A stretch of 26,316 nt of DNA from a virus. Under the pieces are notes generated by a model. That model ran no database searches. It was not told where the DNA came from and saw only the letters and a list, made by a program, of their open reading frames with translations. This document shows, piece after piece, positions 8,735 through 26,316 of this stretch. Location: the IMG/VR virus record IMGVR_UViG_3300021478_000102, positions 1 to 26,316 of that record; one strand, written 5' to 3'. A program made the translations under genes and the position numbers. Position 1 is the first letter of the stretch. Every line of letters begins with the position of its first letter.

Positions 8735-9016
8735 TCAAGGTGCCACAACATAAAACGAAATCGTGTCGGTTTTGACGTTCTCGAACGAGTCGGTCATCGC
8801 TAAGGTAACGATCAGAGCTTCGCCCAGCACGCCATCCTGCAAAAAGAAAATCACCTCATGGCCGAGGACGGAAGGATCGACAATCGTGCAGGTGGTCGAT
8901 GACGATGTCACGTCAATCTTGTCGATAGTAGCGGTGTTGTCCAACCATCTGGCGTAACTAACCCGCCAACGCCGCTTGTCACCTTCAGTGTGCTTCTTAC
9001 TGGCCAGGAGCGTCAT
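8735..9016 (-). CDS. Small beta-rich virion-associated protein, 93 aa
   Basis: The sequence alternates hydrophobic strands (CTIVDPSVLGHEVIFFL, GEALIVTLAMTD) after a basic N-terminus (KKHTEGDKRRWRV). It looks like a small immunoglobulin-like or fibre-associated fold, but I cannot name a family. The ATG at 9016 lies inside the end of the 42-residue gene upstream, overlapping it by 20 bases. Overlapping pairs of this kind are common in phage late regions and suggest coupled expression. Confidence 0.72.
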   Translation of the reverse strand: MTLLASKKHTEGDKRRWRVSYARWLDNTATIDKIDVTSSSTTCTIVDPSVLGHEVIFFLQDGVLGEALIVTLAMTDSFENVKTDTISFYVVAP

Positions 9017-9125
9017 TGGGCACCTCGATCCATCGCCATTCCCCAGGAACTTCGATCACGAAATCTTCTTCCGGCACCACGATCACCCGGTCTTCTTCCG
9101 GTACGATAATGATATCATCGTCCAT
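8997..9125 (-). CDS. 42-residue acidic microgene with VPEED repeats
   Basis: The ATG at 9125 overlaps the preceding TGA as TGATG. The frame is MDDDIIIVPEED, a second IVVPEED copy, then FVIEVPGEW, ending NDAPGQ and TAA at 8999-8997. The core is a tandem of short beta-like units (hydrophobic triplet, VPEED). It is too short for usual ORF cut-offs but has the same start architecture as its neighbours. Function unknown. Coding is supported by the overlap, the regular repeat and the lack of any other explanation for the gap. Confidence 0.72.
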   Translation of the reverse strand: MDDDIIIVPEEDRVIVVPEEDFVIEVPGEWRWIEVPNDAPGQ

Positions 9126-9436
9126 CAGGTGCCACCATTATCGAGCGCAGTAATCTGTGCCTTGTTGGCAACCAGAAACGCCTGCAACGCCTGATCGAGC
9201 ACATCGAGCGCGTAGGCATAAGCGGCACCTTGTTCGCCGGGCGTTTCCCCCGGCAGCACGCCGAAATTGCTTCCGGTTTCAAGCGCTATCCCGGTCGGCT
9301 CTGGCGCGCCGCTCTGCGCCGCCGACGCCGCGAGGTTGACGCGATGGAGTTCTTCAATCGCGCTAATGAGATTGGCGATGCTCACATTGGACAAAGACCC
9401 GAAGGGAGTAGCGCCGTTGACGATGATGGCTGGCAT
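9125..9436 (-). CDS. Small conserved-looking phage protein, 103 aa
   Basis: The N-terminus (MPAIIVNGATPF) is followed by an amphipathic helix, a Gly/Pro-rich middle and a helical end (YALDVLDQALQAFLVANKAQI). No family recognised. AAGGA stands about 9 bases before the ATG at 9436, so I prefer it to the TTG two codons earlier. The stop overlaps the 42-residue gene as TGATG. It belongs to the small-gene run between the fibres and the nozzle, so a fibre-attachment or tail accessory role is possible but not shown. Confidence 0.75.
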   Translation of the reverse strand: MPAIIVNGATPFGSLSNVSIANLISAIEELHRVNLAASAAQSGAPEPTGIALETGSNFGVLPGETPGEQGAAYAYALDVLDQALQAFLVANKAQITALDNGGT

Positions 9437-9450
9437 TTCCAAATTTCCTT

Positions 9451-9762
9451 TTAGCTGTTTGCTTTGAAGAGCAGTTTGATTGCGTCGTAATTCCTGCCCT
9501 GCGCCTGCAGTTGATCGGCCTCTCGAACCAGCCCGGCGCGATAGGATTGATCAACGATGGCAGGAGCGTCCGGTGGCGGCGGCTTTGGCGATACATAGGG
9601 ATCGGGCACGCCGCCATCGGCCAGCCATTGCAGATACCCAGGACTTTGCGGATCGCCGTTATAGTCGCGGTTAGCCATATCTGGCGGAATGTATGCGCCA
9701 TCGGAAGTACGAATAACGGCGCAGGGTTCAGTAGGGGCTGTGAGTTGGTATTCAGCGGCCAT
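9451..9762 (-). CDS. Small phage protein with AEYQLT...VIRT N-terminus, 103 aa
   Basis: The N-terminal half (AEYQLTAPTE, AVIRTSDGAYIP, then ANRDYNGDP and YLQWLADGG) resembles short accessory proteins found beside tail fibre genes. The middle is proline-rich (SPKPPPPDAPA) and the end is a helix (READQLQAQGRNYDAIKLLF). GGAGG lies before the ATG at 9762. The short gene immediately upstream (9848-9931) begins with a related sequence, so the two look like a duplication. Biochemical role unknown. Confidence 0.75.
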   Translation of the reverse strand: MAAEYQLTAPTEPCAVIRTSDGAYIPPDMANRDYNGDPQSPGYLQWLADGGVPDPYVSPKPPPPDAPAIVDQSYRAGLVREADQLQAQGRNYDAIKLLFKANS

Positions 9763-9791: not shown

Positions 9792-9931
9792 TCAATCGTC
9801 AAGCCATTGCGCAATCTCGACCGGATTGTTGTGCGGTACGAAGTGGCTTACCCATTAGCGCTATCCTTGTCGCGGTTGGCGGAATCGGTGCGTATCACAA
9901 CATCGGTGTTGGTGAGTTGATAGTCTGCCAT
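9792..9931 (-). pseudogene. Short, apparently frameshifted paralogue of the following gene
   Basis: An ATG at 9931 overlaps the stop of the large collagen fibre as TGATG. The frame reads [21 protein letters not shown] and stops after 27 codons (TAA 9850-9848). It is related to the start of the next protein (AEYQLT, VIRT, ANRD). Shifting by -1 near 9852 gives a continuation with PVEIAQWLDD ending at 9792, which resembles the YLQWLADGG part of the paralogue. Either a 27-residue peptide is made or a 1-base loss broke a gene of about 47 codons. No canonical slippery heptamer is visible. A sequencing error cannot be excluded. Confidence 0.5.
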
Positions 9932-11784
9932 CACAGCCTCGCATTGGCGTTGACAGTAAATCCGTTATGAATGCTCTCCGTGTTTACAGCCCCAGTAAAT
10001 TGAATTCCCACGGAGTTAAGATCGTTCATACTGAACGAGTTGAAGGTCGAGTTGGTCGGTGCATTAGCCGTAAAAGCACAAGTTGGTTGCGCGCGCTTTG
10101 TCACCTTGAACGGAAACACAACCCCCACACACCCGTTTGAGGTCATGGTCTGTCGATATCCGCCAGTTACACGCTCCCAGTGACGCATGCACGCCGCCAA
10201 CTCACTGGCATAGTCCGGTACCATGAATGGCGGCGCGACGTTGCCCTCATACAGTCCGACGTCGAACAATTCGAACACATTGCCTGCCGTACCCATGAAG
10301 TTGAACTGATTGGCCGTAGCCAAAAACCCAACGTTTGATGTCCACGATCCAGCCGCTTGTTGGACATTAGAACCGGCCATTAGTGCCCACGACACATAGA
10401 GACCAACGGTACTATCCACTACCCATGCCCCGGGAATGTCGAGCGGCACGGTAACCGACTTGACAACATCTCCGGTAACAACATCTGCGGGTGTAATGAC
10501 ATATTCCGCGACATAGCTTCGATTGAGCGCGCCATTCCAAAACGCGACACAATAAGTGCCTGCGGGAGCCTTCACCCCAAACTGAAGGATTACAGTTTTA
10601 GCGTTAGCCGTCCCCAATTTGAGATCGGCAACGCGCAAACCCTCCCATGCGGTTTGTATGCGTATCTGATCGGCTGCGTCCATTGACGCATCAGCAGCGG
10701 TTACCGTAAACCGCAGGCGATTTGGTGATCCTCCTGGCGTCGGGCTGGCGACTTGAGCGAACGAAGCTGTGCCTGAAGTATTGAGCGTCCCCACCTTGAA
10801 TTGATCTACCGGAAAATATCCAGCTACAGTACCTGCCGCATTCCCATTCTCTTGCGAAACCATCATCGCGCCGTTGAGGACATAGTTTTTCTTCAGATCG
10901 CCGATGTTGCTACGCGCCTGCGCTTGCTGGTTCGCCGTCAATCCCTGCGCGATGTCGTAGCGCACCGCCCCGACACCTGCGGTCCCTGTCGCTCCGGTTG
11001 CTCCCGTTGCGCCTACACCACCCGGCGTGCCTGCTGATCCAACAGCGCCAGTCGGTCCGGTTGCGCCAACAGTCCCTGGCGTGCCCGGTGTACCTGCTGT
11101 CCCCTGTGCGCCGGTCGGACCGGTGGCGCCAGCGCTGCCTGGCGTGCCCACCGATCCCTGTGCGCCGGTCGGTCCGGTGGCGCCAGCGCTGCCTGGCGTG
11201 CCGGGTGTACCAACAGAACCAGCAGCGCCGGTCGGTCCAGTCGCGCCTACGCCACCTGGCGTACCAGGGGTACCCGCCGATCCCTGCGCACCTGTCGGTC
11301 CGGTCGCACCAGCAGTGCCCGGGGCACCAGGAGTACCAGGGGCGCCTACCGACCCCTGAGCGCCGGTCGGACCCGTTGGCCCCGGCAAACCGGCTCCTGT
11401 TGCCCCTCCCCCTGCAGGTCCTGTCGGTCCGGTCGCACCAGCAACTCCAGGTATACCCGGCGTACCGGCTGATCCTGCAGCACCGGTCGGCCCGGTACTA
11501 CCCACGCCCGATCCACCAGTCGGACCCGTAAACGCGCCCGCGCCAGTCGGCCCGGTCAAACCCACTCCAGCAATTCCAGTTGCTCCAGTTGGACCTGTGC
11601 TGCCTACTCCCGACTGACCGGTCGCGCCAGTCGGTCCGGTAAACGCCCCCGCTCCGGTCGCCCCGGTTGCCCCGGTAGGTCCACCAGCCGGCCCCCCAGG
11701 ACCAGTCGAACCCGTCGAACCAGTCGGTCCGGCGATCACTACCGGAAACGCCTGCACTGGTGCCGCTGGTATGACGTTCACCAT
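9931..11784 (-). CDS. Large collagen-stalk tail fibre, 617 aa
   Basis: After a short anchor (PVVIAGPTG) there are about 250 residues of almost unbroken Gly-x-y triplets, mostly GPT, GAT, GTP and GAQ, as in phage collagen-like stalks that form triple helices. The stalk ends at [20 protein letters not shown], a junction typical of tail fibres. A beta-rich tip of roughly 300 residues follows and includes [18 protein letters not shown], a block common near the end of phage fibre tips. The expected role is host-surface binding as a trimer. The ATG at 11784 is preferred to the TTG four codons earlier, because the upstream gene stops at 11786. The stop overlaps the next small gene. Confidence 0.87.
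10975..11735 (-). repeat. Collagen-triplet coding repeats
   Basis: This stretch is built of short imperfect direct repeats coding for Gly-Pro-Thr-Gly-Ala and Gly-Thr-Pro-Gly units of about 10-20 residues. At DNA level the copies are close but not identical, so repeat number could change by recombination or slippage. On the opposite strand they give long spurious proline/valine open frames. Confidence 0.85.
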
Positions 11785-11785
11785 C

Positions 11786-12508
11786 TTACAGCTCAATCAA
11801 CATGAACTGAGTGTCTCGCACATAGGCTGTACTGCCAGCCGTCGCCGTGATGGCAAGATCGAACCAGTAAGTTGTGCCAAGCGTCAGCGACGACACGATT
11901 TCCATCACGGTGAAACCGGAATAGTCGTTGGCCGAAGCAGAAAAACTCTGCTGGAATTGACCAAACTGCGTACCACTACCGCCCGCCGCGCCAGCCACTG
12001 GAGACGCGCCGGTGCCATACTTGGCCATGATGGAAGTGCCGGCTCCGGTGCCGCCGGTCGAATTGCGCGCCAGGCCAGCAAATATCAGCATCAGCCGACC
12101 GCTGCTGACGGGCGTATAGCGAAACCCAAGCCCGATAAAAGACAGCGTCGTGCCATAAGGCCCGAATGGCCCTCCCGATGCAGCAGTATAAATTCCCCCA
12201 ATACCAGTGGATGCACCAGTTGCCCCCAGCGGACCGGTCGGCCCGGTCACCGTCGAAGCCGCGCCAGCCGAGCCGGGCGGCCCAGTACGGCCAGTCGGAC
12301 CAGTAAATGCGCCAGCCCCAGTTGCGCCCACCGCTCCTGTCGGTCCGGTAACTCCGGTCGGTCCTACCGATCCCGTGGCGCCCGTAATCGTTGCAAGTCC
12401 GGCAGGCCCTGTCGCCCCTGTGGGGCCGCCACTTGGTCCTGTGGGGCCGCCGACTACAACCACCGGCTGAGCCATGATCGGCGCGGGAATATTCGATTGC
12501 TGCGACAT
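11786..12508 (-). CDS. Collagen-stalk tail fibre with short globular tip, 240 aa
   Basis: The N-terminus ([20 protein letters not shown]) matches the anchor of the two flanking fibre genes. About 75 residues of Gly-x-y follow, including AGAFTGPTG, which also occurs in both neighbours. The C-terminal 130 residues (from [12 protein letters not shown] to DTQFMLIEL) form a beta-rich domain with [11 protein letters not shown] and [14 protein letters not shown], resembling small trimeric fibre heads. GAGGG precedes the ATG at 12508. It is probably a receptor-binding or decorating fibre. It appears to be one of three tandem copies with different tips. Confidence 0.83.
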
Positions 12509-12514
12509 GATCCC

Positions 12515-12922
12515 TCAACCTATTCGCCAACTGGTCCCATCAGAAAACACCGGCACTTTATTGCTGCCGCCCCCGGCAACGACGCTATTGAATGTTGTGG
12601 TGGTTGCATCGATAACGAAATTCCGGCCACCTACAGCGCTTGCTGTCGGCAAACCAGACACCGTCGTCGATCCGCCTAGCGTCCCCGGCGGCCCCGTTAA
12701 ACCGATCGGTCCGGTCGGCCCGGTAAATGCCCCCGCTCCCGTTGCCCCAGTCGGCCCAACGCCACGATCCCCCGTCGCCCCAGTCGGTCCCACGATCGCT
12801 GCGCCGGTTGCTCCAGTCGGACCGGTCGGACCGCCAAACGCACCCGTGGCGCCGGTCGGCCCGTGCACAACCACGACGGGGCGGGTCTCTACCAGGGCAG
12901 GATCGTTGTTGATGACCGGCAT
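12515..12922 (-). CDS. Short collagen-like fibre protein, 135 aa
   Basis: An anchor ([15 protein letters not shown]) leads into about 60 residues of Gly-x-y and a small C-terminal domain ([20 protein letters not shown], then [14 protein letters not shown]). The last block is a familiar ending of phage fibres, a short strand with W-R. The ATG overlaps the upstream stop as TGATG. It is the shortest of three adjacent collagen-stalk paralogues. The likely role is a minor fibre or virion decoration. Confidence 0.8.
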
Positions 12923-14515: not shown

Positions 14516-16664
14516 TTACGCCAAAAGAACTTGCGCCTGCGCAATCGCAGTCGGATCCAAAACCTGATAGCCGTAGACCTGTAGTCCACGAAGGATTTGG
14601 CCAAACGTCAATTCGCTTCGCAGGGTTTCGACTTTGCTGATTTGCGAGGCGAACGTCAGCCCGTGAGCATGACCGGCAAAGATCGGTTGCTCACCGGCAG
14701 CAAAGTTAGTGGCGTCCGTCGCCACGCTCGGCAGCAGGTTAGAGATATAGATCGTGAACCGGTCAACCATGCCAAGCCGGCCATTGCGCAGCATCGATAC
14801 CGGATCACCCGACAAATAGGCCTGCCGCAATTCAGACTGCTTGATCTGACGACCGGCCGCCGCCGACATCACCACCCAGCGTCCCTGTTCCGGAATATTC
14901 TGCTCGTCGAGGCACTGACCGAGCCGCAGCAGCACGTCGATGATTTCAATCTGCCCCGCCACCGGCGGATTGGCCTGGCGACCGACCATTGTGATCGGCG
15001 TGCCCTTGATGCCAAGGTTGATATTGCCGGAAATCGCCCCGGCCGTCGCACCCTTGTTAGCCGCCGCGGCACCACCGACGATACCGCCAAGCACATCGCG
15101 ATCGACCACGATCTTGAGCTGCTGCGCCGCATCGTCCGACCACATCGACAGCAGATTGAGATCGGACTGGACCTCCATCACGTCATCGAGGATCAGACTG
15201 AAATATTTGCCGATGCCGATATACAACTCGACCGAACCTCCGGTCGGTCGATCGAGGCCGAGTAGACCATCCGCCTTGTAGTCGCGAATAGTGATCGTCG
15301 GCTTGGTCCTGATTTTGACTCTGTCTCCTTGATTTTGGCAAATCGCATACGCGATTCCGACTGTCGCTTCAGGGCTAACCCTGCCAGGTCACTCAGTCTG
15401 TGCGAGCGCATTATCATGCTTCTCTCTGGTTCCTATTGGTCCCAGTTGTTCAGACCTGGTTACGAGACCGTTACAATCTCACCTTCATAATCCGTCGGAT
15501 TGGCCTTTGCCAATTCTGACTGTCGCATACGCCAGTTCTGGTTACCAGGATGTGCAGTTGAATATGGTGAAAGATCACGCACAGTACCTAGTAAACGCTG
15601 AACATCAGCGCCTGGACCGCTCAGTCGATGCGGTTGAGTACGCAGATTATCCATGGCCAGTTTGATCGCATCTCCATCTCTGAAATGCCCCATTTTGGCG
15701 CATCCAAGAAGAAAGTACACTTGATCAACTTTTAGAACCATGGATCGAGCTAATCGACCCTTGTCACTTTCAAACATGGCGCGGAATTTGGCCGCATCAA
15801 ATGAAAGTATCCATGAGGTCAACTCCACGCCAGTATTGATGTGGTCATAAAGAGAACCACCATACTGTTTATGAAGTAGCTCAACACCTGCACGACGCCG
15901 CTTCTCGCTCGTTATCTGCAAAACAATCTGAGCAGACTTTCTGTCTTTTGGACGACGAACGCTAAACGACCCATCACCGTCTATATATCCTGCTGTCCAC
16001 TTAGTTGTAGGATGCTTCGGTACAATCGGCATATCTGCAGCACGCCAAGCGGCTTCAATGATCTCTCGATCCATATCTTGACCATCAACCTTGCCGGCAA
16101 GCTCAGCAAGACCGCGTTTAAGGACAAGATATTTTTTCAAAAGATTACATACCGAAACCGCACGTTTACCACCTACGCTCCAGCACCAAGCGTCTCGTTT
16201 ATGCCGTGCGTCAAACTTGATGTGCCCCCAGTACTGAGTGCACGACGGCGGAGTTAAACTCCACGCAACAAGCTCGACAAAATCACGAGAACCGCTCTGT
16301 GAAAGCGCAAGGTAAACTTGCACACGCTTAGATGGACCACACTTCGGACCGTCCCACTCCCTGATTTGATAGGTGATAGACCCATCAGCATCAAGCAGAC
16401 CAGCAAGATACTTCAACGGCAATTTACTCTTACCTCTGGTTCCTTTCGGTTCCAGTTTTTCAGGTCCAGTTTTACTCGAACCGCTGTTCAATTCGAGATC
16501 GCCGACAAAACAGTCGACGCATAAAACTTCTCGACGAGCTTGGCACTCCAGATCTCAGGAATGAAACCAGTCGTTTGGAGGTTGTTAGGTGAAGACCCTA
16601 CAGGTGTAAGGGCGGGTACGGATCCTGACGTTGCGCCAGGAAATCCGGCACTGGGAATAGGCAT
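14516..16664 (-). CDS. Major capsid protein, interrupted by two group I introns (338 aa after splicing)
   Basis: The coding sequence is a join of 16664-16491 (58 codons), 15495-15476 (20 nt) and 15338-14516 (823 nt), 1017 nt including stop. Exon 1 ends VLSAISN, the micro-exon adds TDYEGEI, and exon 3 continues QNQGDRVKIRTKPTI, restoring the SN-TDYEGEI-x-x-x-GD motif familiar in this phage coat family. Neither frame can be read through unspliced: exon 1 runs into TGA at 16490-16488, and the frame before exon 3 is closed by stops. The C-terminal part (YIGIGKYFSLILDDV to YQVLDPTAIAQAQVL) is typical coat protein. AAGGGA precedes the ATG at 16664. The gene follows the scaffold, as usual. The fold is presumably HK97-like, by family knowledge. 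Confidence 0.93.
15339..15475 (-). ncRNA. Group I intron 2, 137 nt, minimal core without endonuclease
   Basis: Positions count from the 5' splice site. P1: exon GAGAU pairs with GUCUC (8-12), with U.G at the splice site. P3: CCAGGUC (17-23) with GACCUGG (86-92). P4: CUGG (31-34) with CCAG (47-50). P5: CC/GG with loop AAUA and flanking purine joints GA/AA. P6: GAG/CUC plus GCAU/AUGC. P7: GACUG (78-82) with CAGUC (113-117). P8: CAGGG/CCCUG (93-106). P9: AUCGC/GCGAU (121-134), then UUG with the terminal G. Removal joins GAGAU to CCAAAAUC and gives an in-frame coat sequence. All core helices are present in a very small space. Confidence 0.9.
15460..16422 (-). CDS. LAGLIDADG homing endonuclease in intron 1, about 320 aa
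   Basis: Two LAGLIDADG helices are visible, LAGLLDADG near residue 6 and TAGYIDGDG near residue 143. A single chain of two half-domains of this size should act as a monomer, each acidic motif residue contributing to one metal-dependent active site. The start is uncertain. A TTG at 16422 follows AGAGG by 10 bases and lies just before the first motif. The frame is open further up to a TTG at 16491, which would begin inside exon 1. The frame runs through the 3' ribozyme core (P7-P9) and the micro-exon in the coat-protein phase, and stops at TAA 15462-15460 inside intron 2. Its expected role is cleavage of intronless capsid alleles to spread the intron. Confidence 0.9.
   Translation of the reverse strand: MPLKYLAGLLDADGSITYQIREWDGPKCGPSKRVQVYLALSQSGSRDFVELVAWSLTPPSCTQYWGHIKFDARHKRDAWCWSVGGKRAVSVCNLLKKYLVLKRGLAELAGKVDGQDMDREIIEAAWRAADMPIVPKHPTTKWTAGYIDGDGSFSVRRPKDRKSAQIVLQITSEKRRRAGVELLHKQYGGSLYDHINTGVELTSWILSFDAAKFRAMFESDKGRLARSMVLKVDQVYFLLGCAKMGHFRDGDAIKLAMDNLRTQPHRLSGPGADVQRLLGTVRDLSPYSTAHPGNQNWRMRQSELAKANPTDYEGEIVTVS
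15476..15495 (-). other. 20-nt micro-exon of the major capsid gene
   Basis: The bases code for TDYEGE and the first two bases of the next Ile codon, between the terminal G of intron 1 and the U.G splice site of intron 2. Family knowledge of coat proteins (SN followed by TDYEGEI) supports exonic status. The 3' part of this exon is also the 5' strand of P1 of intron 2. Confidence 0.88.
15496..16490 (-). ncRNA. Group I intron 1, 995 nt, with endonuclease in the P6 loop
   Basis: P1: exon CUCGAAU pairs with GUUCGAG (16481-16475), with U.G at the splice site. P3: CUGGACC (16469-16463) with GGUCCAG (15618-15612). P4/P5: CUGG, AA, CC, GAAA, GG, AA, CCAG (16455-16436). P6: GGU with ACC (15634-15632), and GAGUA with UACUC (15640-15636). 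P7: GACUG (15626-15622) with CAGUC (15522-15518). P8: CGCUGA with UCAGCG (15610-15596), followed by about 70 extra bases. P9: AUUGGC with GCCAAU (15514-15499), then CCG and exon. The same layout as intron 2 with different paired bases is strong comparative evidence. The endonuclease lies between the two P6 strands. Confidence 0.92.
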
Positions 16665-16720
16665 GAGAGTGATCCCTTGGATTAGGGGACTACTACCGTT
16701 CTGTTCGAGCAGCCCCCGGG

Positions 16721-17830
16721 TTACATCTGGACACGCCCTTCCGCACCAGCCGCAATGATATCGGCATCCTGCCGAGCCCATTCGGCTTCACGCCCGACGT
16801 ATGCGCCCCTACGATGCGCAGAGTAGAGCTGTGCGATTTGAGCGCGAGTGTAAGTGGGTCTGTCGCTGGGCATCGAGGCGTCACCGCCCGTTGCCGGCCT
16901 GGCCCTGCCAGGGGCCGCAAGTGAACTCAGATCGATCGCCGGCTCCCGGAGGGACCTGGAGCTGGGCGCTGGTTCACTGTGCCCTGTAGCTGCTTCCTCT
17001 TGCCGGAAGCCGTTGAAGAACGAGATTACACGTGGCGCATTGGCTGACGCGATAGCTTCGTTCAACAATTGCTGTCTAACACGTCCTGATAGAAGATCAA
17101 TCCCCAGTAACCATTGAAGCCACCGCGGATCACGATCGATCTCCCGGAAATTCGGCACCGCCGCCTCGACCCGCATATCGAGTCGGGCCCGCGCCTCGTC
17201 CGCCAATCGGCGCTGCAGTTCGGTATTTTGCTGCTCCAACGCCTGCAGATGTGGTGCTACCGCCTGCACCGCCGCGCGCTGAGTAAAATCAACCAGATCA
17301 GATCCGTAGTCCTGAACATCCTTCTCGGTTACGTAGGACCGCGGCGGCGGCGGCGCGTGGCGCGGCTGTTGAGAAGCCCATTGCTGGGTCTGCAACAGCT
17401 CTCTACCCATCTGGGCGATTTGCTCCTCCAGCTCGCCAATCGTCTTCTGCGACGTTGTAAAGCGGCCCTGCAATCCGAAATACCGAGACTTCCAGGTCTC
17501 TGAATTTTCGTTTTCAGCAGGACGTTGATCCGCAGACGCCGGGTGGGGTGGAGGCTGTTGAGAGCCCGGCGCCTGCGTGGTCGGCTCAGCCAACGGGAGG
17601 TCAAGCTGCTCCGACGCTGATTCAACAGCCGCAGGTTGCTGTGGCTGCGAACCATTTGAATTCTCTGCAAGCGGTGGTGTCGCCGGCGGCGTTTCTACCG
17701 ATGCGGCAGCCGATGGTGTGGCGTAGAACGCCTCTACCGCCGCCACCCGTCGCTTGACGGCGTCGGGTATCATATCGGGGTCATAGGGAAGCTTCGCCAT
17801 CGGTTTTTCATCGACCACGACATCAACCAT
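16721..17830 (-). CDS. Capsid assembly scaffolding protein, 369 aa
   Basis: The gene directly precedes the capsid gene. It has the composition expected of a podovirus scaffold: a disordered Pro/Gln/Ser-rich first third, charged coiled-coil segments (TTSQKTIGELEEQIAQMGREL, then LQALEQQNTELQRRLADEARA at about residues 195-215), and a basic/acidic C-terminal helix (YTRAQIAQLYSAHRRGAYVG, then AEWARQDADIIAAGAEGR). That end resembles the coat-binding end of known scaffolds. It should nucleate procapsid assembly inside the shell and leave before or during packaging. The ATG at 17830 overlaps the preceding gene by 8 bases. Confidence 0.87.
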   Translation of the reverse strand: MVDVVVDEKPMAKLPYDPDMIPDAVKRRVAAVEAFYATPSAAASVETPPATPPLAENSNGSQPQQPAAVESASEQLDLPLAEPTTQAPGSQQPPPHPASADQRPAENENSETWKSRYFGLQGRFTTSQKTIGELEEQIAQMGRELLQTQQWASQQPRHAPPPPRSYVTEKDVQDYGSDLVDFTQRAAVQAVAPHLQALEQQNTELQRRLADEARARLDMRVEAAVPNFREIDRDPRWLQWLLGIDLLSGRVRQQLLNEAIASANAPRVISFFNGFRQEEAATGHSEPAPSSRSLREPAIDLSSLAAPGRARPATGGDASMPSDRPTYTRAQIAQLYSAHRRGAYVGREAEWARQDADIIAAGAEGRVQM

Positions 17831-18781: not shown

Positions 18782-19549
18782 TTATGAGTTGTCGCCATAG
18801 ATCACCTCACCATTGATCGCGATCGTGACCTCGACCTGGCCGACGGTTTGCACGTTGAAATGCACCGAAGCCATTTCCGGCTCAGGTCCGGGCGCCGGCT
18901 GCGCCGAGCCGCTCGCCCATTCAGCTATCAGTTCGTCGGCGCCGCCCTGATAAGAATTGATATCGCAGGGACCAATGCCATCAATGGTGTGCGGGCTGGG
19001 GCCGACTTCGCCATCAGTGAATTGCCAGAGCCAGTAGGTTTTCCAACACGGCGGCACGACCGGCGTTGATCCGTACTGACACAGCCATAACCGGCGACTG
19101 GCGAAGAACTCGTCGATCTCGTCGCCCAACGCCTCCTTAATAGTATTGCCGCCGTAAATTACGCATTCGTTGGGTCGTTCAAGTGCGTCCTCGACCTTGG
19201 TGATCCACTCCTTGACCTGCGAGGGGCTCATCTTGCCGCTACCGCTGGGATTGTCCTCCCAGTCGAGGCAGAACAGCTCGTCCCGGTCGGGACAAGCAAA
19301 AGTTAAAAAATTGTCGACCTGCCCGTCAACATCGCTGGCATCCGCGAAGTGATACGCGCCCCAGCACAGTCCCGCGGCCTTTGCCGCTGTTTGCTGATCG
19401 ACATAGCTAGGGTCGTTATAGCTCTGGCCTTCGGTCGCTTTATAGATCACGCCAACGATGCCATCCTGCTTCACCGCTTTATAATCATTGGCCGGATCCC
19501 AGTGCGATAAATCGCAGACAAGTGGATTAATCTTCTCGCTGCTACTCAT
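18782..19549 (-). CDS. GH25-family muramidase (endolysin), 255 aa
   Basis: The start contains VCDLSHWDPA (residues 11-20), followed by GVIYKATEG, WGAYHFAD and CLDWEDN, where D96 and E98 form the family's catalytic D-x-E pair, then WLWQFTDG near residue 170. These are the ordered landmarks of the GH25 barrel, which cuts the MurNAc-GlcNAc bond of peptidoglycan. A Pro-rich linker (about 215-225) leads to a short strand-rich tail (VHFNVQTVGQVEVTI) that may form a small extra domain. No signal peptide is seen. It overlaps the GH24 gene by ATGA, so the two lysins are made together. A virion-associated role is an alternative. Confidence 0.9.
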   Translation of the reverse strand: MSSSEKINPLVCDLSHWDPANDYKAVKQDGIVGVIYKATEGQSYNDPSYVDQQTAAKAAGLCWGAYHFADASDVDGQVDNFLTFACPDRDELFCLDWEDNPSGSGKMSPSQVKEWITKVEDALERPNECVIYGGNTIKEALGDEIDEFFASRRLWLCQYGSTPVVPPCWKTYWLWQFTDGEVGPSPHTIDGIGPCDINSYQGGADELIAEWASGSAQPAPGPEPEMASVHFNVQTVGQVEVTIAINGEVIYGDNS

Positions 19550-20115
19550 GACATCTCCTCCTCTGCCGGCGGATCGACGCTCTGCGGCATGGGCTCGAAC
19601 GGTGACGCAACGACCTTGTCCGGCTTGCCGTCGTAATTGTCGTCGGAGATATTCTGGAACAACAGCGCCTCACTGGCACGCCGCCGGGTTAGACCCGGCA
19701 GCACCTTACCATTGGCTTTATTCCACTTGTGAAATTCTGCCGCTGCGGATTCCCATTGTTGTAAATTCACATGCTTCAAAAGACTCGACTTGGCTAAATT
19801 GCCCTCGCCGCAGTTGTAACAAAAGCTCGTCAGGGCGTCGAAGCGGTAATCCGTCAACGGGACCTTGACCAACCGGCGCACCGATTTTTCGAAGGCTTCC
19901 ATGTCTCTAAGAAACGCTTCGTCGCATTGCTGCTTAGTCCACACGGTATCCAGTTTAATCTGATGGCCATGCTCGGTTGTCGTTCCCCAACCTATGGTTG
20001 TAACTCCCGCTGGACACGTGTAAGCCCTGTACTTGCCCTCGTGCGGCTTAAGACAGCCTTCAAAATGTTTAATGAGGTTTGCTCCTGCTGGACTGAGTTT
20101 CCTGTCCTCATTCAT
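19546..20115 (-). CDS. GH24-family lysozyme (endolysin), 189 aa
   Basis: Landmarks are HFEGCLKPH with catalytic Glu19, YTCPAGVTTIGWG with Cys34 where T4 lysozyme has Asp and Thr40 in the third position, then LTSFCYNCGEGNL and LPGLTRRRASEALLF. The Glu-Cys-Thr form is common in phage lysozymes. It hydrolyses the peptidoglycan glycan backbone. The chosen ATG (20115) has AGGAG 8 bases upstream; the longer frame has no ribosome site. No N-terminal membrane anchor is present, so release should depend on a holin. A C-terminal extension of about 35 residues (SDDNYDGKPDKVVASPF) is acidic and of unknown use. Confidence 0.92.
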   Translation of the reverse strand: MNEDRKLSPAGANLIKHFEGCLKPHEGKYRAYTCPAGVTTIGWGTTTEHGHQIKLDTVWTKQQCDEAFLRDMEAFEKSVRRLVKVPLTDYRFDALTSFCYNCGEGNLAKSSLLKHVNLQQWESAAAEFHKWNKANGKVLPGLTRRRASEALLFQNISDDNYDGKPDKVVASPFEPMPQSVDPPAEEEMS

Positions 20116-20155
20116 GGCATGCACTCCTGCTCTGACAACGTCCCCCGTGTTGATG

Positions 20156-20386
20156 TCATGGTCTCGGTCCCTGCCGGCAGTCACGAATGTCGGACACCAA
20201 CTTGCTGATCAGTTCGGTCTGAGTCTTGTTACGCTCCTGCGCGTTGGCCGCAACTTCACCCAGCACATAGGCCGCAAAACCAAGAAATCCGATATTGACG
20301 ACAAGTAGAGCAATCGCCAGCGGCGTCGATTTCATGGCATCGATGGTGTTGCTCGCAACCTTGGCGGCCTGCTCCGGCATACTCAT
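20156..20386 (-). CDS. Small one-helix membrane protein, holin-like candidate, 76 aa
   Basis: An N-terminal amphipathic part (AAKVASNTIDAMKSTP) precedes one hydrophobic segment (LAIALLVVNIGFLGFAAYVL), followed by a charged, probably cytoplasmic helix (QERNKTQTELISKLVSDIRD). It is a paralogue of the gene just upstream (VAS-x-T, then S/Q-x-PLA-x-AL-x-VVN). The position immediately before two lysins fits a holin or other lysis membrane protein. A one-helix layout resembles class III holins, but the sequence alone does not prove pore formation. The ATG overlaps the preceding stop. Confidence 0.75.
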   Translation of the reverse strand: MSMPEQAAKVASNTIDAMKSTPLAIALLVVNIGFLGFAAYVLGEVAANAQERNKTQTELISKLVSDIRDCRQGPRP

Positions 20387-20622
20387 TGTCGCTCACTCTT
20401 CACCGGCGGTGCCATCTCGATGCAGCGTTCCATCATGGCTGAGACCAGATTGTCTTTTCGCAGTGATGCAGTTTCAAGGCGCTGGAAAAAATCATGTGCC
20501 GTCCACATTCCCCCCAGCAAGAATAAAACGTTCACAACGACCAGTGCGAGCGCCAACGGTTGGCCCTTCAGCGCTTCAACAGTGCCACTTGCAACCTTGC
20601 CACCTTCTTCAGTGATACCCAC
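20383..20622 (-). CDS. Small one-helix membrane protein, paralogue of the next gene, 79 aa
   Basis: The layout is the same as in the following gene: GGKVASGTVEALKGQP, a hydrophobic helix (LALALVVVNVLFLLGGMW) and a charged tail (FQRLETASLRKDNLVSAMMER). The start appears to be GTG at 20622 with a weak ribosome site, suggesting low translation. Two diverged copies side by side could be a holin and an inhibitor or two subunits of one pore. This is inference from the pair and the lysin neighbours. Confidence 0.72.
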   Translation of the reverse strand: MGITEEGGKVASGTVEALKGQPLALALVVVNVLFLLGGMWTAHDFFQRLETASLRKDNLVSAMMERCIEMAPPVKSERQ

Positions 20623-21037: not shown

Positions 21038-21649
21038 CTACTTCGGTTGCGCCGTATCCTGCGGCGGGAAATAACCCCAACCGTAAGTCGGCGTATAAGC
21101 CCAGCCTCCATCTTCCGGCGGCAACTTGATCGCCTCCTGATCCGGCGGCGGCGGAGGTGGCAACACAATCGGATGCGTCGGACGCCCCGGCTTCGGCCAA
21201 ATCTCGACCGGCGGTCCACCAGGCTCAACCGGCGGCAGCACGATGGGGTGTGACGGATGAGGTTGGCCACCCGGCAAACCCTGATCAGGGTAAGGTGGAG
21301 CTACACCACCCCAATATCCCGGAGGCGGACCACCTGGCGCGATGGGATGTGACGGGTAAGGCGGAGCTACACCGCCCCAGTAACCAGGAGGCTGTCCCGG
21401 CAAGCCCTGATCCGGATGCGGTGGTGCGATGCCGCCCCAATAACCGGGAGGCGGACCACCCGGCGCAATTGGATGGGTCGGAAGTGGAGGTGCTACACCA
21501 CCCCAATAACCGGGAGGCGGACCACCCGGAGCAATCGGATGTGTAGGCAGCGGTGGCGCCACACCGCCCCAGTAACCGGGAGGTTGTCCGCCTCCACCAC
21601 CACCGGTCCCGCCGAGTGGAGTGATGAGCGCTAAGAAAGGAGTATGCAT
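21038..21649 (-). CDS. Proline-rich PPGYWGG-repeat protein, 203 aa
   Basis: After a hydrophobic/Gly-rich start (MHTPFLALITPLGGTGGG) come five copies of a unit of about 21 residues with the core PPGYWGG(V/I)APP, linked by HPIAPGG or PDQGLPG. Proline-only variants follow (THPIVLPP, VEPGGPPVEI), then an aromatic end (GGWAYTPTYGWGYFPP). I have seen HPIAPGG and PDQGLPG strings in phage proteins of unknown function. Such chains are extended and often bind partners or surfaces. No signal peptide is clear. GGAGG lies 9 bases before the ATG. It could be a virion accessory or a lysis/envelope protein. Confidence 0.8.
   Translation of the reverse strand: MHTPFLALITPLGGTGGGGGGQPPGYWGGVAPPLPTHPIAPGGPPPGYWGGVAPPLPTHPIAPGGPPPGYWGGIAPPHPDQGLPGQPPGYWGGVAPPYPSHPIAPGGPPPGYWGGVAPPYPDQGLPGGQPHPSHPIVLPPVEPGGPPVEIWPKPGRPTHPIVLPPPPPPDQEAIKLPPEDGGWAYTPTYGWGYFPPQDTAQPK
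21275..21589 (-). repeat. Five tandem repeats coding for PPGYWGG units
   Basis: Units of about 60-66 bp repeat five times, each with a nearly identical core coding PPGYWGG and a variable linker coding LPTHPIA, HPDQGL or YPSHPIA. High identity between cores suggests recent expansion or homogenisation within the gene. Confidence 0.88.
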
Positions 21650-21697: not shown

Positions 21698-23716
21698 TCA
21701 CGCACCTTCCGCGATGAAAGCGATGACTTCATCCAGGTTCATCGTCGCCAGCCAAGCCTCGCAATCGCGCACGCCATAGCTTGCCAACAGCTGTCTTTTA
21801 TCGGGAAAATATGACAGTCCGGCCGCGAATTCGATTTGCCGATCGTGGAAGCAAAACGGCAAGGAAATCCGCAAGCATCGACCGTCATCGTCGAACACCA
21901 CGAATCGATGCTGGTAGTATCTGACAGAACGACCCGGGATCGATCTGGCTTCATGCACCAGCGCCAGCCAGATGCCATCAACATTGATGACCTGCGACCC
22001 GCCGCTGATATGGCCGACGTCGACATCGCAGTCATGTTGACTGATGATCTGGCCGTTCGTATCGATCAACGTTCCCAACCGGTAGACGAACTGCAGCGCC
22101 CCATCCTTTTGCACCCATGGCATCCAGTTCTTTTCATGACGGCGTTCTGCGACATGAACGGTACCCGCCCCGCAATAGGCCACACCACCATTCGCCGTAT
22201 CCAGAACAGACGCCAGCACCTGGTCACACCAGCCCTCCGGCGTCAGCTCGCGTACTGTGGAAAGCGTGTAAAGCGTGCCCAGCGCACCGGAAGCACCCCA
22301 CTCGAACAACCGTGAATCTTCAAACCCGCGCACCAGATCGAACTTCGGCTCTGGCCAATTCGGCGGCAGCGCCAACTCGTGACTCGACTCGATCGCTAGC
22401 TCATGATCCAGACCGACAAGATAATTGCGAGTACTAATAGGATTGTTCCGATTACAACTACCGTCCGATCCCCGAATTGCATAAACCCCCTCCGGCGTGA
22501 TGGTGTAATTAACGCTACGCACAAGCGCCATCGGCTTGCCGTTGTGGTTGATCACCGACGGATTGGTGGCGACATAACCTGGTTGTGGCTGAAGCACGAT
22601 TTGTGACGGCTTGAACGACGGGACGTGCTGCGCCAACGGCCTGAGATACCAGTATTGATTGATGCGCGCCTGCTCGCGCGCCTGCCAGGACGCCGGCTTC
22701 GACAGCGCCACCTGGTTACAAACCTTGGCACCCTCTGTCCGCTTGCGCGGATCGTAATAGGCGCAAACCGCGAATTCTTCCTTCAACCCAACTCTGTATA
22801 CATACTCATTGACGAAGAGTAGATCATCTCGGGGAAAAGGAACGGACATTCCTGGTTCTGAAAATAATAGGCTGATATGGTTGTCGCCACGTTCCCGGAA
22901 ATATTTGGCAAGATCGTACAACGACTCCACTCTGGAGGGCCGAAGCCGATACGCTCGAAACATTTCCCAGAGGAATTGCGCGTCAAAGCCCAGGTTCGAT
23001 AGACAGTGCGCGTAATGCAGTTGTGCATTCCACACCTCCTCGTCGAAGCCGCCGAGTTCGGTTCGGATCTTGTAATGCTCCGCCGCCTTGGCCCAGTCGC
23101 CCTTGTCGAAGAAAGATTGCGCCAGATAAAAATGATAGCGCTGAATCAGGCCAGGGTCAGTTTCGGTTTTGAGTGCCTGTTCGAGCAGATCGATGTCACG
23201 TTGAAACTTGGCGGCTCGGTTTGATCCGTCGGCATGATCATTGAATTCTGCTCCTTCCAATTTTCCAGCAGACTCAATAGCAAGGTATTCGTGCGTAACC
23301 CCCATATAATTGCCTGTAGCATGACGACTGACCACTCTTCGATTAACGTATCGGACGGATCCTGCAGTCTGATACATGTCATAAGACAATCCTCCGTTCA
23401 GCTGCCTGGTCCAGTCCGGATCACTAATCTTCAACTCCATATCGGCATCGGCCAGCAGCAGATAATCCCACTTCAACGGACTGCCGCGCGCAAACTCCAA
23501 TGCCTTGTTACGGGCCTGGTCAAAGGCGAAAAACGGAGCGTAATGAATCTCAATCGACTTGCCAGCCTTATTGAACAATTCCGTAATCCGCTCCGGCGTG
23601 TCATCGCTCGATCCGGTATCAATCACGATAGCGCCGTCGACATGAGGTAACAGACTCCTCACGCAGCGATCGATGATCGCTGCCTCGTTCTTGACGATGG
23701 CGTTCCAAACCAGCAT
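21698..23716 (-). CDS. GT2 glycosyltransferase fused to TPR and GH130-like domains, 672 aa
   Basis: Residues 1-150 form a GT-A fold of family 2: WNAIVKNEAAIIDRCVRSLL, AIVIDTGSSDDT, then LLADADME with the metal-binding D-x-D at 90-92. Residues 160-280 look like TPR helices (YFYLAQ-type: YHFYLAQSFFDKGDWAKAAEHY). From about 380 to the end the protein resembles the five-bladed GH130 fold: GFEDSRLFEW (466-469 EDSR, comparable to the family's E-D-P-R), GSQVINVDGIWLALVHEA and LLASYGVRDCEAW near the end. It may transfer a sugar to a virion protein, DNA or host glycan; substrate unknown. GH130 enzymes are mannoside phosphorylases or hydrolases, but activity here is unproven. One base separates its ATG from the preceding TGA. 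Confidence 0.85.
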   Translation of the reverse strand: MLVWNAIVKNEAAIIDRCVRSLLPHVDGAIVIDTGSSDDTPERITELFNKAGKSIEIHYAPFFAFDQARNKALEFARGSPLKWDYLLLADADMELKISDPDWTRQLNGGLSYDMYQTAGSVRYVNRRVVSRHATGNYMGVTHEYLAIESAGKLEGAEFNDHADGSNRAAKFQRDIDLLEQALKTETDPGLIQRYHFYLAQSFFDKGDWAKAAEHYKIRTELGGFDEEVWNAQLHYAHCLSNLGFDAQFLWEMFRAYRLRPSRVESLYDLAKYFRERGDNHISLLFSEPGMSVPFPRDDLLFVNEYVYRVGLKEEFAVCAYYDPRKRTEGAKVCNQVALSKPASWQAREQARINQYWYLRPLAQHVPSFKPSQIVLQPQPGYVATNPSVINHNGKPMALVRSVNYTITPEGVYAIRGSDGSCNRNNPISTRNYLVGLDHELAIESSHELALPPNWPEPKFDLVRGFEDSRLFEWGASGALGTLYTLSTVRELTPEGWCDQVLASVLDTANGGVAYCGAGTVHVAERRHEKNWMPWVQKDGALQFVYRLGTLIDTNGQIISQHDCDVDVGHISGGSQVINVDGIWLALVHEARSIPGRSVRYYQHRFVVFDDDGRCLRISLPFCFHDRQIEFAAGLSYFPDKRQLLASYGVRDCEAWLATMNLDEVIAFIAEGA

Positions 23717-23717
23717 T

Positions 23718-24023
23718 TCAGGGGGTGCCAGTAGGGCCGGATGTACTGGACGCGCCCGATGCGCCGGATGCGCCCGATGTACCCGACGTACCTGATGTAC
23801 CTGATGTACCCGTTACGCCCGTCGTACCGGTTGCGCCCGTCGTACCGGTTGCGCCCGTCGTACCCGTTACAGCCATGACTTCCTGAACCTGCATGACTTC
23901 GACTTCCTCACCCGGGGCCGCCGTTTGCACCGCCAGTGCAATGGCTTCCTCGCGAGTGGCGGCCTCAACGGTAGTGACCACGGTCGCGCCGGTCTTGCGC
24001 GCTTTGACAGTAAAAGACGGCAT
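23718..24023 (-). CDS. Small protein with collagen-like tail, 101 aa
   Basis: The first 45 residues form a compact domain (FTVKARKTGATVVTTVEAAT, then REEAIALAVQ). The last half is pure triplets: GTTGAT, GTTGVT, GTSGTS, GASGAS. The tail has few prolines, so it may not form a stable triple helix. It could be a flexible linker or a decoration. GGGAGTG precedes the ATG. It sits between portal and glycosyltransferase, and its Ser/Thr-rich tail would be a conceivable glycosylation substrate for the next gene's product; this is inference only. Confidence 0.75.
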   Translation of the reverse strand: MPSFTVKARKTGATVVTTVEAATREEAIALAVQTAAPGEEVEVMQVQEVMAVTGTTGATGTTGATGTTGVTGTSGTSGTSGTSGASGASGASSTSGPTGTP

Positions 24024-24046: not shown

Positions 24047-26316
24047 CTATCCCGGTCCGCCTCCAATGGGAGCCGAACGTCCGCCCGGACCTGGCGGTTT
24101 CGGCTGGTTACCGACCACATTGGCAGCCTGCGCTGATGCATTCGACATCGGGGTCGGCTGGTTGCCCTGAGCCTGGGCAGCAGCTTGCGGGCCACCGGGC
24201 GGCATGCCGGGCGGCAAAATGCCAGGCGGTCCCATGCCCGGCGGGCCGCCAGGCGGTCCGCCCATCCCCCCAGCCTGCGACGCCAGCAATCCGGCGGTCA
24301 GTTCGGAGGCGATTTTCTGCGTCCCCAACTGCACACCCGTCTGGATGCCCTGCTCGACTTTCTGGTTGAGCGCCTGCTGCTCGGCGCCCTGCTGCGCCGC
24401 CTGCTGCTGTTTCTGCAATTCGTCGTCGGTCGGCACCACCGTCTCGCCGTCGAGCCCGATGGTCTGCGACACCGAGCGCAACACCGAACCACGACCCTTG
24501 GCACCCATAATCGCAAAGTCGGTCGGGTTGTTGGTATGCTGTAGAAACTCGAGCTGACGCTGCCGCAAGGTCTCGCGTTGCACCGCGACCGAAACCCCCT
24601 GCACCGAGATGTCCTCTTCCCCGGTGAGCAGTCCGGTGGTGTCGGTCAGCAGTACCAGATCGGCCAGTTGCTGCAGCGCCAGTTCGAGAATGTCGCGATC
24701 GATATTCGAAGCCACGGTCTGCAGGATCTTGCTGGCGTTGTTCATCAACATCGCCAGCCCGGAAGCGGTGCGGCCGGCGCCACCACCAGGCTGGCCGCCA
24801 ATATATTTCGGGATCGCGCTGACGTCGTCAGACAGGTCGACGAACGCCTTGAACACCGTCAACAGATCCTGGGCATTGCTCTGCGGCTGGAAGAATTCAA
24901 CCGGAGGCTTGGCGTTATTACCGACCGGATCGTTGGTGACGTGCCAGCGCTTCCATGGGTACAGATCGTCGGTGTTTTCCTCCGGCCGGGCCCGGTCGTC
25001 ATTGACAATCACCTGCGGTCCGGAGGAAATCGAGACGTTGTTGACCAGCGAGCGCAGACAGGCATTGGCGACGTCCTGCAGATCGGCGATGATGTCGATC
25101 AATCCGTTACCCAACGGCGTCCCCGGCACCTTCTCGAAACTGCTGATGAAATACGGATGCCGAGCCCGCGGCGACGGCGACAACTGCACCTTGATGATAT
25201 GCGAGCCGATGCACCAGGCGTCGATGCGATAATCGCGCAGCTCGTCAGAAGCCCCCGGCATGCCGTATTCCTGCAGGATCCGACCCTGTACGTTGCCGTG
25301 GAATTCCATCTGGGTAATCAGCCCGGATCTATTCCACGCCGGATTTTCCCTCGATTCCAGTACCGCGCGCTCGGCGTCGGTGGTGTCCCAATTGTCGTAC
25401 AACCCGCCGCGGCCGTATTCCTCCAGCACCGCGCGCACCTCGTTCTGGTCGAACCCCGGCAGGTCAAGGCAGTCGTTGAGTTCGGCGCGAGTCAGGCGGG
25501 ATTTTTCGATCACCGAGGCGTTGGCGATATCCGACACGCCCGGGGTCCACCACAGGTCGAACGGCGATACCCGCCCCCACATCATCTTCGGTGTCTGCAC
25601 CACCTGCGGACGACCGCCGCCGGGCGGCCACTTCACTTCCGGCATGATCTTGACCGTCGGGCCCTTGATGCACCCAAACGGGAAGATGGACAGATCGACC
25701 AGAAATTCGGCCATCGCGTGGTAGAAGCCGCCCTCCTGCAGCATCTCCTCGATACGGTCTTCCGAGGTCTGGGCCTGCTCGCGAGCTTTCTTGCGCGCCG
25801 CATCGGAAGCCGACTCCAGCAGCGCCCGACGACGCTTTTCGGTGTCTTGCGATGCCGGCGGCTGGCCGGTGGTCTGCGTCACCACCTGCTGCTCCTGCTG
25901 CATCAGCTGGTCGATCTTCTGAATGATCTCCGGCGGGATGTCCGGGTCGGCCGGCGGCTTGATGCTCCAGGGCCGGTCCGGGCCGAGATAGATGTCACGC
26001 AGCAGCGAAGAAGCCGCCCGGCATTTCTGCGCGCTGAGCCGGGCATAGACCTGGCTGCCGCCGAACTTGATGACTTCCCGTTCCTTGGTCGGATCGTACT
26101 GCCCGTTGAAGGTGCGCAACGCCTGCAACAACCGGTTGGACCAGCCGCTGTCAGCGTTGTTGCGGTGGTCGCGCATCATGTTGAACTGGGCGCGGATATA
26201 GCCGACCAATTCCGGCGGCGCCGGCTCCGGCGGTGCCCGTGCCGCCGCCTTGTCCAGTTCGCGCTGGCGAATCATCGCCTCCAGCGCCGCCGGCGGCACC
26301 ACATTGAGAACGCCGA
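24047..26316 (-). CDS. Portal protein, podovirus type (5' end outside the window)
   Basis: The frame has no stop up to the window edge, so the true start may lie outside; a GTG at 26302 is the first candidate seen and gives 751 residues, similar to long podovirus portals. Visible parts are an N-terminal helix with RTFNGQYDPTKE, a core with SPFDLWWTPG, the stretch NGLIDIIADLQDVANACLRS and SISSGPQVIVND, GGAGRTASGLAMLMNNASKI near residue 510, and a Gln-rich helix (LQKQQQAAQQGAEQQALNQ) before a long Gly/Pro/Met tail. These are typical of the twelve-fold ring at the capsid vertex through which DNA is packaged and released. It binds terminase, scaffold and adaptors. Confidence 0.88.
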   Translation of the reverse strand, partial: GVLNVVPPAALEAMIRQRELDKAAARAPPEPAPPELVGYIRAQFNMMRDHRNNADSGWSNRLLQALRTFNGQYDPTKEREVIKFGGSQVYARLSAQKCRAASSLLRDIYLGPDRPWSIKPPADPDIPPEIIQKIDQLMQQEQQVVTQTTGQPPASQDTEKRRRALLESASDAARKKAREQAQTSEDRIEEMLQEGGFYHAMAEFLVDLSIFPFGCIKGPTVKIMPEVKWPPGGGRPQVVQTPKMMWGRVSPFDLWWTPGVSDIANASVIEKSRLTRAELNDCLDLPGFDQNEVRAVLEEYGRGGLYDNWDTTDAERAVLESRENPAWNRSGLITQMEFHGNVQGRILQEYGMPGASDELRDYRIDAWCIGSHIIKVQLSPSPRARHPYFISSFEKVPGTPLGNGLIDIIADLQDVANACLRSLVNNVSISSGPQVIVNDDRARPEENTDDLYPWKRWHVTNDPVGNNAKPPVEFFQPQSNAQDLLTVFKAFVDLSDDVSAIPKYIGGQPGGGAGRTASGLAMLMNNASKILQTVASNIDRDILELALQQLADLVLLTDTTGLLTGEEDISVQGVSVAVQRETLRQRQLEFLQHTNNPTDFAIMGAKGRGSVLRSVSQTIGLDGETVVPTDDELQKQQQAAQQGAEQQALNQKVEQGIQTGVQLGTQKIASELTAGLLASQAGGMGGPPGGPPGMGPPGILPPGMPPGGPQAAAQAQGNQPTPMSNASAQAANVVGNQPKPPGPGGRSAPIGGGPG

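Follow-up and report, generated by a model that had tools for sequence, protein, structure and literature searches.

Results

A GT2-TPR-propeller fusion protein is conserved in a phage clade

The 26,316-nucleotide window analysed here, which is the whole of a stretch of viral DNA (IMG/VR record IMGVR_UViG_3300021478_000102), encodes a protein in which a GT2 glycosyltransferase domain, a TPR-like helical array and a GH130/GT108-like propeller are joined in a single chain, and which is probably a glycosylating enzyme acting on collagen-like threads of virions and of some bacteria. This three-part chain had been proposed in an initial annotation of the sequence and was borne out by the ORF, by Pfam searches and by the predicted structure (Table 1). 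The same annotation regarded the architecture as unusual, which did not hold within the phage clade, where it represents a conserved family: 65 homologous loci were recovered in a scan of IMG/VR, 49 of them with full-length ORFs of 649–678 amino acids. At one locus (L131:4900-7012) the fusion ORF was split into pieces of 545 and 87 amino acids, with a gap of 211 nt. The parts are of known kinds; the fusion, its distribution among phages and soil bacteria and its association with Thr-rich collagens seem to be undescribed in open-licence papers, and a search of these for work combining collagen-like proteins with GH130 found none.

Two alignments were used, one of 39 relatives (A1) and one of the N-terminal part with 26 rows (A3). 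In the N-terminal half, PF00535 (GT2) was detected by Pfam on residues 8–96 with 35.8 bits for a cut-off of 23.3, and this above-threshold domain contains a D-x-D motif, which qualifies the window protein as a GT2 member. PHROG 13126 ('beta-1,4-glycosyltransferase') spanned residues 6–325, and TPR models, weak near residues 176–231 of the window protein, were found in most relatives. Profile searches with this half retrieved GmaR (E 5e-15), SunS (7e-13) and ThuS (1e-10), all of which are peptide or protein glycosyltransferases. An AlphaFold2 model built on the 39 aligned relatives predicted the fold of both halves with confidence (pLDDT 93.1, pTM 0.86), and a single-sequence model (pLDDT 37) was set aside. 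VIA-align of Foldseek candidates gave Z 23.2 for SunS and 21.3 for ThuS over residues 1–280 of the model, the GT2 plus helical repeat fold being common to these proteins and the fusion. Unlike the fusion, SunS and ThuS lack a propeller and act on bacteriocin peptides at Cys, and the window protein reached 22.7 bits with the SunS equivalog model TIGR04195, far under its cut-off of 350.

Table 1. Features of the fusion gene and of associated genes in the window.
Feature	Position	Strand	Basis
GT2-TPR-GH130-like fusion protein, 672 aa	21698..23716	-	ORF; homologues; AlphaFold2 model
GT2 (GT-A) domain, residues 1-169	23210..23716	-	PF00535; PHROG 13126; SunS/ThuS fold
D-x-D motif, D90-A91-D92	23441..23449	-	D90 and D92 invariant (A3, 26-row N-terminal alignment)
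TPR-like helical array, residues 170-365	22619..23209	-	Pfam TPR in most relatives; model helices
GH130/GT108-like five-bladed propeller, residues 367-672	21701..22618	-	Fold Z; weak PF04041 in 9/39 relatives
E466-D467-S468-R469, counterpart of GH130 E-D-x-R with candidate catalytic Asp	22310..22321	-	Conservation; alignment to E-D-A-R of GH130 proteins
Collagen-like protein, 101 aa, candidate substrate	23718..24023	-	PF01391 29.9 bits (cut-off 27.2)
Collagen-like tail-fibre-type protein, 621 aa, 47-triplet run, candidate substrate	9931..11796	-	PF01391 E 2e-21; PHROG tail fibre
G-X-Y repeat protein, 240 aa, candidate substrate	11786..12508	-	8-triplet run; no Pfam match
G-X-Y repeat protein, 135 aa, candidate substrate	12515..12922	-	6-triplet run
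Portal protein (SU10/head-tail connector type), gene-order anchor	24047..26302	-	PHROG 332 E 7e-64

The C-terminal half is predicted to be a GH130/GT108-like propeller

A GH130-like propeller had also been claimed initially, and both structure searches and conserved residues supported it; an absence of such a fold, or a loss of its key residues among the relatives, was looked for and not found. Residues ~360–672 of the model matched GH130 structures with Z values of 20.4–23.6 (VIA-align of Foldseek candidates), including RaMP1 (23.6), Teth514_1788 (22.9), BfMGP (22.9), Uhgb_MS (20.9) and 5a7v, the entry of the BT3780 paper (20.5), and GT108 MPT structures with 17.8–19.0. Since GH43 and other propeller families reach Z values up to 17.8, the activity is not fixed by the fold alone. 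The propeller of the window protein had no Pfam match, PF04041 (GH130) included, and the weak PF04041 matches among the relatives had a best E of 7e-4. Using hhalign against three GH130 sequences, a probability of 91% (E 1e-6) was obtained, with agreement over the E-D and W-L-x-L-x-H stretches. A search of the propeller-domain profile against PDB sequences returned nothing credible, so the GH130 assignment is based on the structure and the motifs, together with the weak Pfam hits and the hhalign match.

Residues N385, R400, N403, E466, D467, R469, R489, K529, H588, R599 and D651 were invariant among the 39 relatives. N385, R400, E466, D467, R469, K529, H588 and D651 were kept in phage, rhizobial and actinobacterial members, and most of them align with GH130 proteins. 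Two GH130 sequences (L195 and L197, the latter matching solved GH130 enzymes) align with N385-P386, R400, E466-D467, H588, G633 and D651. The counterparts in BT3780 by motif order, mapped by alignment and spacing, are Asn74, Arg89, Glu141/Asp142 and Asp363, and the Asn-to-Arg spacing is 15 in both the fusion propeller and BT3780 (N74-R89; PMC4599007). As judged from sequence, the positions of the catalytic-type Asp and of the sugar-binding Asn, Arg and Asp of GH130 appear to be present (N385, R400, E466/D467, D651). GH130 phosphorylases bind phosphate through three basic residues, in place of which the hydrolases have two glutamates. At this site, mapped by alignment, His588 is kept, Lys529 lies no more than one position from the NK motif and a further basic position is variable. 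Such sequence comparison does not distinguish a phosphorylase from a hydrolase or a transferase, the residues that discriminate between the first two being partly kept and mapped by alignment.

The fusion thus resembles GH130 proteins in its five-bladed propeller, E-D-x-R motif and Asn/Arg/Asp sugar-binding positions, but it falls below the Pfam GH130 model, has invariant residues of its own (N403, N431, R489, W531, E629) and has a glycosyltransferase attached. The GT108 MPT proteins of Leishmania, dual mannosyltransferase/phosphorylases, share the propeller fold and show that it can build beta-mannan, but they are stand-alone, eukaryotic and about 10% identical. In GT108 the same fold works as a dual glycosyltransferase-phosphorylase (PMC8950772).

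Propeller relatives occur in many viruses

Searching viral contigs with a propeller-motif pattern recovered at least 581 relatives, and most of the distant ones examined were propeller-only ORFs of roughly 325–450 amino acids. Propeller genes of the same family (22–26% identity) were found in the isolated phages S-SCSM2R, DSL-LC02 and DSL-LC01, under the deposited names MGP protein or beta-mannosyltransferase; they differ from the fusion in being propeller only. These names rest on annotation, and we know of no test of them. A collagen-like gene is adjacent to or near the propeller gene of cyanophage DSL-LC02, and many propeller-only phage genes have no adjacent collagen-like gene. In some phages (L055, L057) the propeller gene has a GT2 gene one or two positions away, and such separate neighbouring genes are consistent with fusion.

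Some viral proteins depart from this layout. Two phage fusions (L088:262-3894, 1210 aa; L085:4924-7662, 912 aa) run on into FkbM and other methyltransferase domains, suggesting methylated glycans. Predicted proteins of the Pithovirus-like giant viruses LCPAC304 and LCPAC202 match long stretches of the model (BFVD).

Collagen-like genes accompany the fusion gene in phages

The fusion gene had been placed next to the portal gene; it is indeed near it, but the two are not directly adjacent, the 101-amino-acid collagen-like ORF standing between them. This ORF contains 13 consecutive G-X-Y triplets (GTT, GAT, GTS, GAS) and ends 1 nt upstream of the fusion gene; at two other loci (L007, L016) the collagen-like ORF shares 4 nt with the fusion ORF. 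In each of 47 portal loci long enough to accommodate it, the fusion gene comes after the portal gene; two further portal loci of sufficient length hold the GT2 part only, near the contig end. Collagen-like genes were enriched at positions -1 to -3 of family genes and nearly absent just downstream.

PF01391 repeats were present in 13 of 13 long fusion-bearing phage contigs, whereas 4 of 11 sister contigs (long, with a portal 51–61% identical and without the fusion) scored above the PF01391 cut-off (Fisher p 0.001, shared ancestry ignored). Some sister phages without the fusion gene thus still encode collagen-like proteins; in the cultured sister RHph_TM27A, neither a fusion gene nor a collagen run was detected in the genome. 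Around the portal, collagen runs of ≥5 triplets lay within 4.5 kb at 22 of the 47 loci of the fusion clade; at sister loci lacking the fusion, runs of ≥7 triplets lay within 5 kb at 8 of 38. These two counts use different cut-offs, and portal-proximal collagen is not by itself a strong argument. Background loci taken around T4-like NrdA, a poorly matched control, lacked both propeller and collagen (80 of 80).

Other features of the window were recorded. A proline/glycine-rich protein with PPGYWGG(V/I)APP repeats (21038-21649) adjoins the fusion gene, and L042 has a 66% match to it (8823-9452) directly downstream of its fusion gene. The major capsid gene seems to be interrupted (14516-16781): relatives have a single ORF of about 335–340 amino acids, and the region here consists of a 236-amino-acid C-terminal part (PF25209), a LAGLIDADG ORF (15460-16491) and a 97-amino-acid ORF, Rfam detecting no group I intron in it. 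Two lytic enzymes, a GH25 protein and a phage lysozyme, are encoded in tandem within 18782-20622; after them come two short ORFs (20156-20386 and 20383-20622) that resemble each other, contain a hydrophobic stretch and may be components of a holin or spanin.

Bacterial members and their collagen-like neighbours

The bacterial survey, one genome scan with the full alignment that yielded 47 loci, revealed the fusion in Mesorhizobium, Bradyrhizobium and Actinomycetota as well. In 20 of 23 alphaproteobacterial loci the fusion has beside it a divergent collagen-like gene, in which G-X-Y runs reach up to 591 triplets; the rhizobial loci are mostly from one genus and therefore not independent counts. 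The Y position was Thr in 95% of 4371 triplets of these neighbours; the corresponding values were 38% for the window and 34% for sister phages, Thr at Y being common in prokaryotic collagens generally. In two genomes of 6–7 Mb, all PF01391 matches fell inside the neighbour of the fusion (coordinates coinciding with L165 and L183). Collagen-like genes were also adjacent to or near family members in Acidimicrobiia (L170, L172, L187) and Ignavibacteria (L189). No collagen-like neighbour was seen for the actinobacterial fusions L168, L171, L173, L176, L178 and L180 or for Devosia L163; L173 is flanked by a phosphodiester glycosidase-like ORF and by housekeeping genes. In a tree of 150 propellers the phage clade joined the alphaproteobacteria (support 96), and the actinobacterial fusions were placed elsewhere. 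GH130 genes were looked for in three more genomes and none was found.

The rhizobial fusions are longer (about 1240–1900 amino acids), and the domains added in three examined were a glycosyltransferase DXD domain (PF04488), GT25, Anp1, and GDSL lipase or methyltransferase. One Bradyrhizobium protein of 1895 amino acids (L156:4690-10377) comprises GT2, TPR, propeller, a second GT2, Anp1, GDSL lipase and GT25, and is encoded beside a collagen-like gene containing a run of 312 triplets. The animal collagen galactosyltransferases also belong to GT25.

Discussion

We propose that the fusion is a two-domain glycosyltransferase decorating the phage's own collagen-like virion proteins, a reading that we give about an even chance. 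By analogy with SgtA, the N-terminal half probably starts a glycan on G-X-T/S repeats, and we infer that the propeller most likely extends it. The SunS/GmaR/SgtA-like GT2 domain would put the first sugar on Ser or Thr of the repeats, with the TPR array holding the acceptor. The propeller might then, with less certainty, extend or cap this sugar with a beta-linked mannose-type residue, for which GDP-mannose or mannose-1-phosphate could serve as donor. The likely benefit would be a triple helix stabilised without hydroxyproline and a fibre surface that is masked or tuned.

The closest functional precedent is SgtA of C. difficile, a GT-A domain followed by TPRs that is encoded beside bclA3 and puts beta-GlcNAc onto Thr of the BclA3 collagen repeats (PMC7157674). 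The fusion likewise has GT-A then TPR in one chain, and its gene adjoins a collagen-like gene in the window and in most alphaproteobacterial loci. By its published description, however, SgtA is a protein of 358 amino acids without a propeller and with a known donor, UDP-GlcNAc (PMC7157674). The neighbouring Gly-Thr/Ser repeat protein had been suggested initially as a possible substrate, and the recurrence of the collagen-gene linkage in several unrelated lineages argues in favour of this candidate. The substrate is probably not always collagen, because most actinobacterial fusions, the Devosia member and many propeller-only genes have no collagen neighbour.

Mannoside cleavage and host-glycan remodelling had been put forward as well, and nothing found supports either. 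A protein glycosyltransferase fits better, because the nearest matches of the N-terminal half are peptide glycosyltransferases and the gene accompanies collagen-like genes even in bacterial chromosomes; the hydrolase and host-remodelling readings are ranked below the collagen glycosyltransferase. That the enzyme modifies a host surface or another non-virion glycan, for superinfection exclusion or remodelling, with the collagen linkage a by-product of its position in the virion block, would agree with the actinobacterial members lacking collagen neighbours and with the frequent targeting of host glycans or DNA by phage glycosyltransferases. We consider it improbable, given the affinity of the N-terminal half and the recurrence of the linkage in chromosomes with no phage gene block at the locus. 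To an equally small degree we credit a mannoside phosphorylase or hydrolase that trims a glycan or supplies sugar-1-phosphate, in a catabolic or editing role rather than a synthetic one. The top fold matches are phosphorylases and the phosphate-site His and a nearby Lys are present, but the basic residues of that site are not all conserved, a glycosyltransferase is fused on, no glycan-degradation genes lie nearby, and GT108 enzymes show this fold to be capable of synthesis (PMC8950772).

It is also unlikely, if somewhat less so, that the GT2 half alone is enzymatic and the propeller a catalytically dead, lectin-like module binding the acceptor or its glycan. The lack of conservation at one basic position of the GH130 phosphate site and the weak GH130 sequence scores would suit such a module; the invariance of D467, N385, D651, R400 and H588 across lineages would not, and stand-alone propeller ORFs in hundreds of phage contigs fit an enzyme better than a passive partner.

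Collagen-like proteins occur widely on bacterial surfaces and on the fibres of phages. To our knowledge, prolyl hydroxylation is generally absent from bacteria, and SgtA is among the few enzymes known to modify collagen-like repeats. As a tentative extension of the collagen glycosyltransferase reading, which we regard as possible but rather doubtful, phages and soil bacteria may have in common an assembly line for collagen glycosylation, which would start a glycan on the threonines of G-X-T repeats and extend it by the GH130-fold domain, rhizobia adding glycosyltransferase and methyltransferase domains, and which would replace hydroxyproline in stabilising viral and bacterial collagens. The GT2-TPR-propeller family, tied to Thr-rich collagens in phages, rhizobia and other bacteria, provides testable candidates for collagen modification and, if the proposal is true, would add protein glycosylation to the activities of the GH130/GT108 fold.
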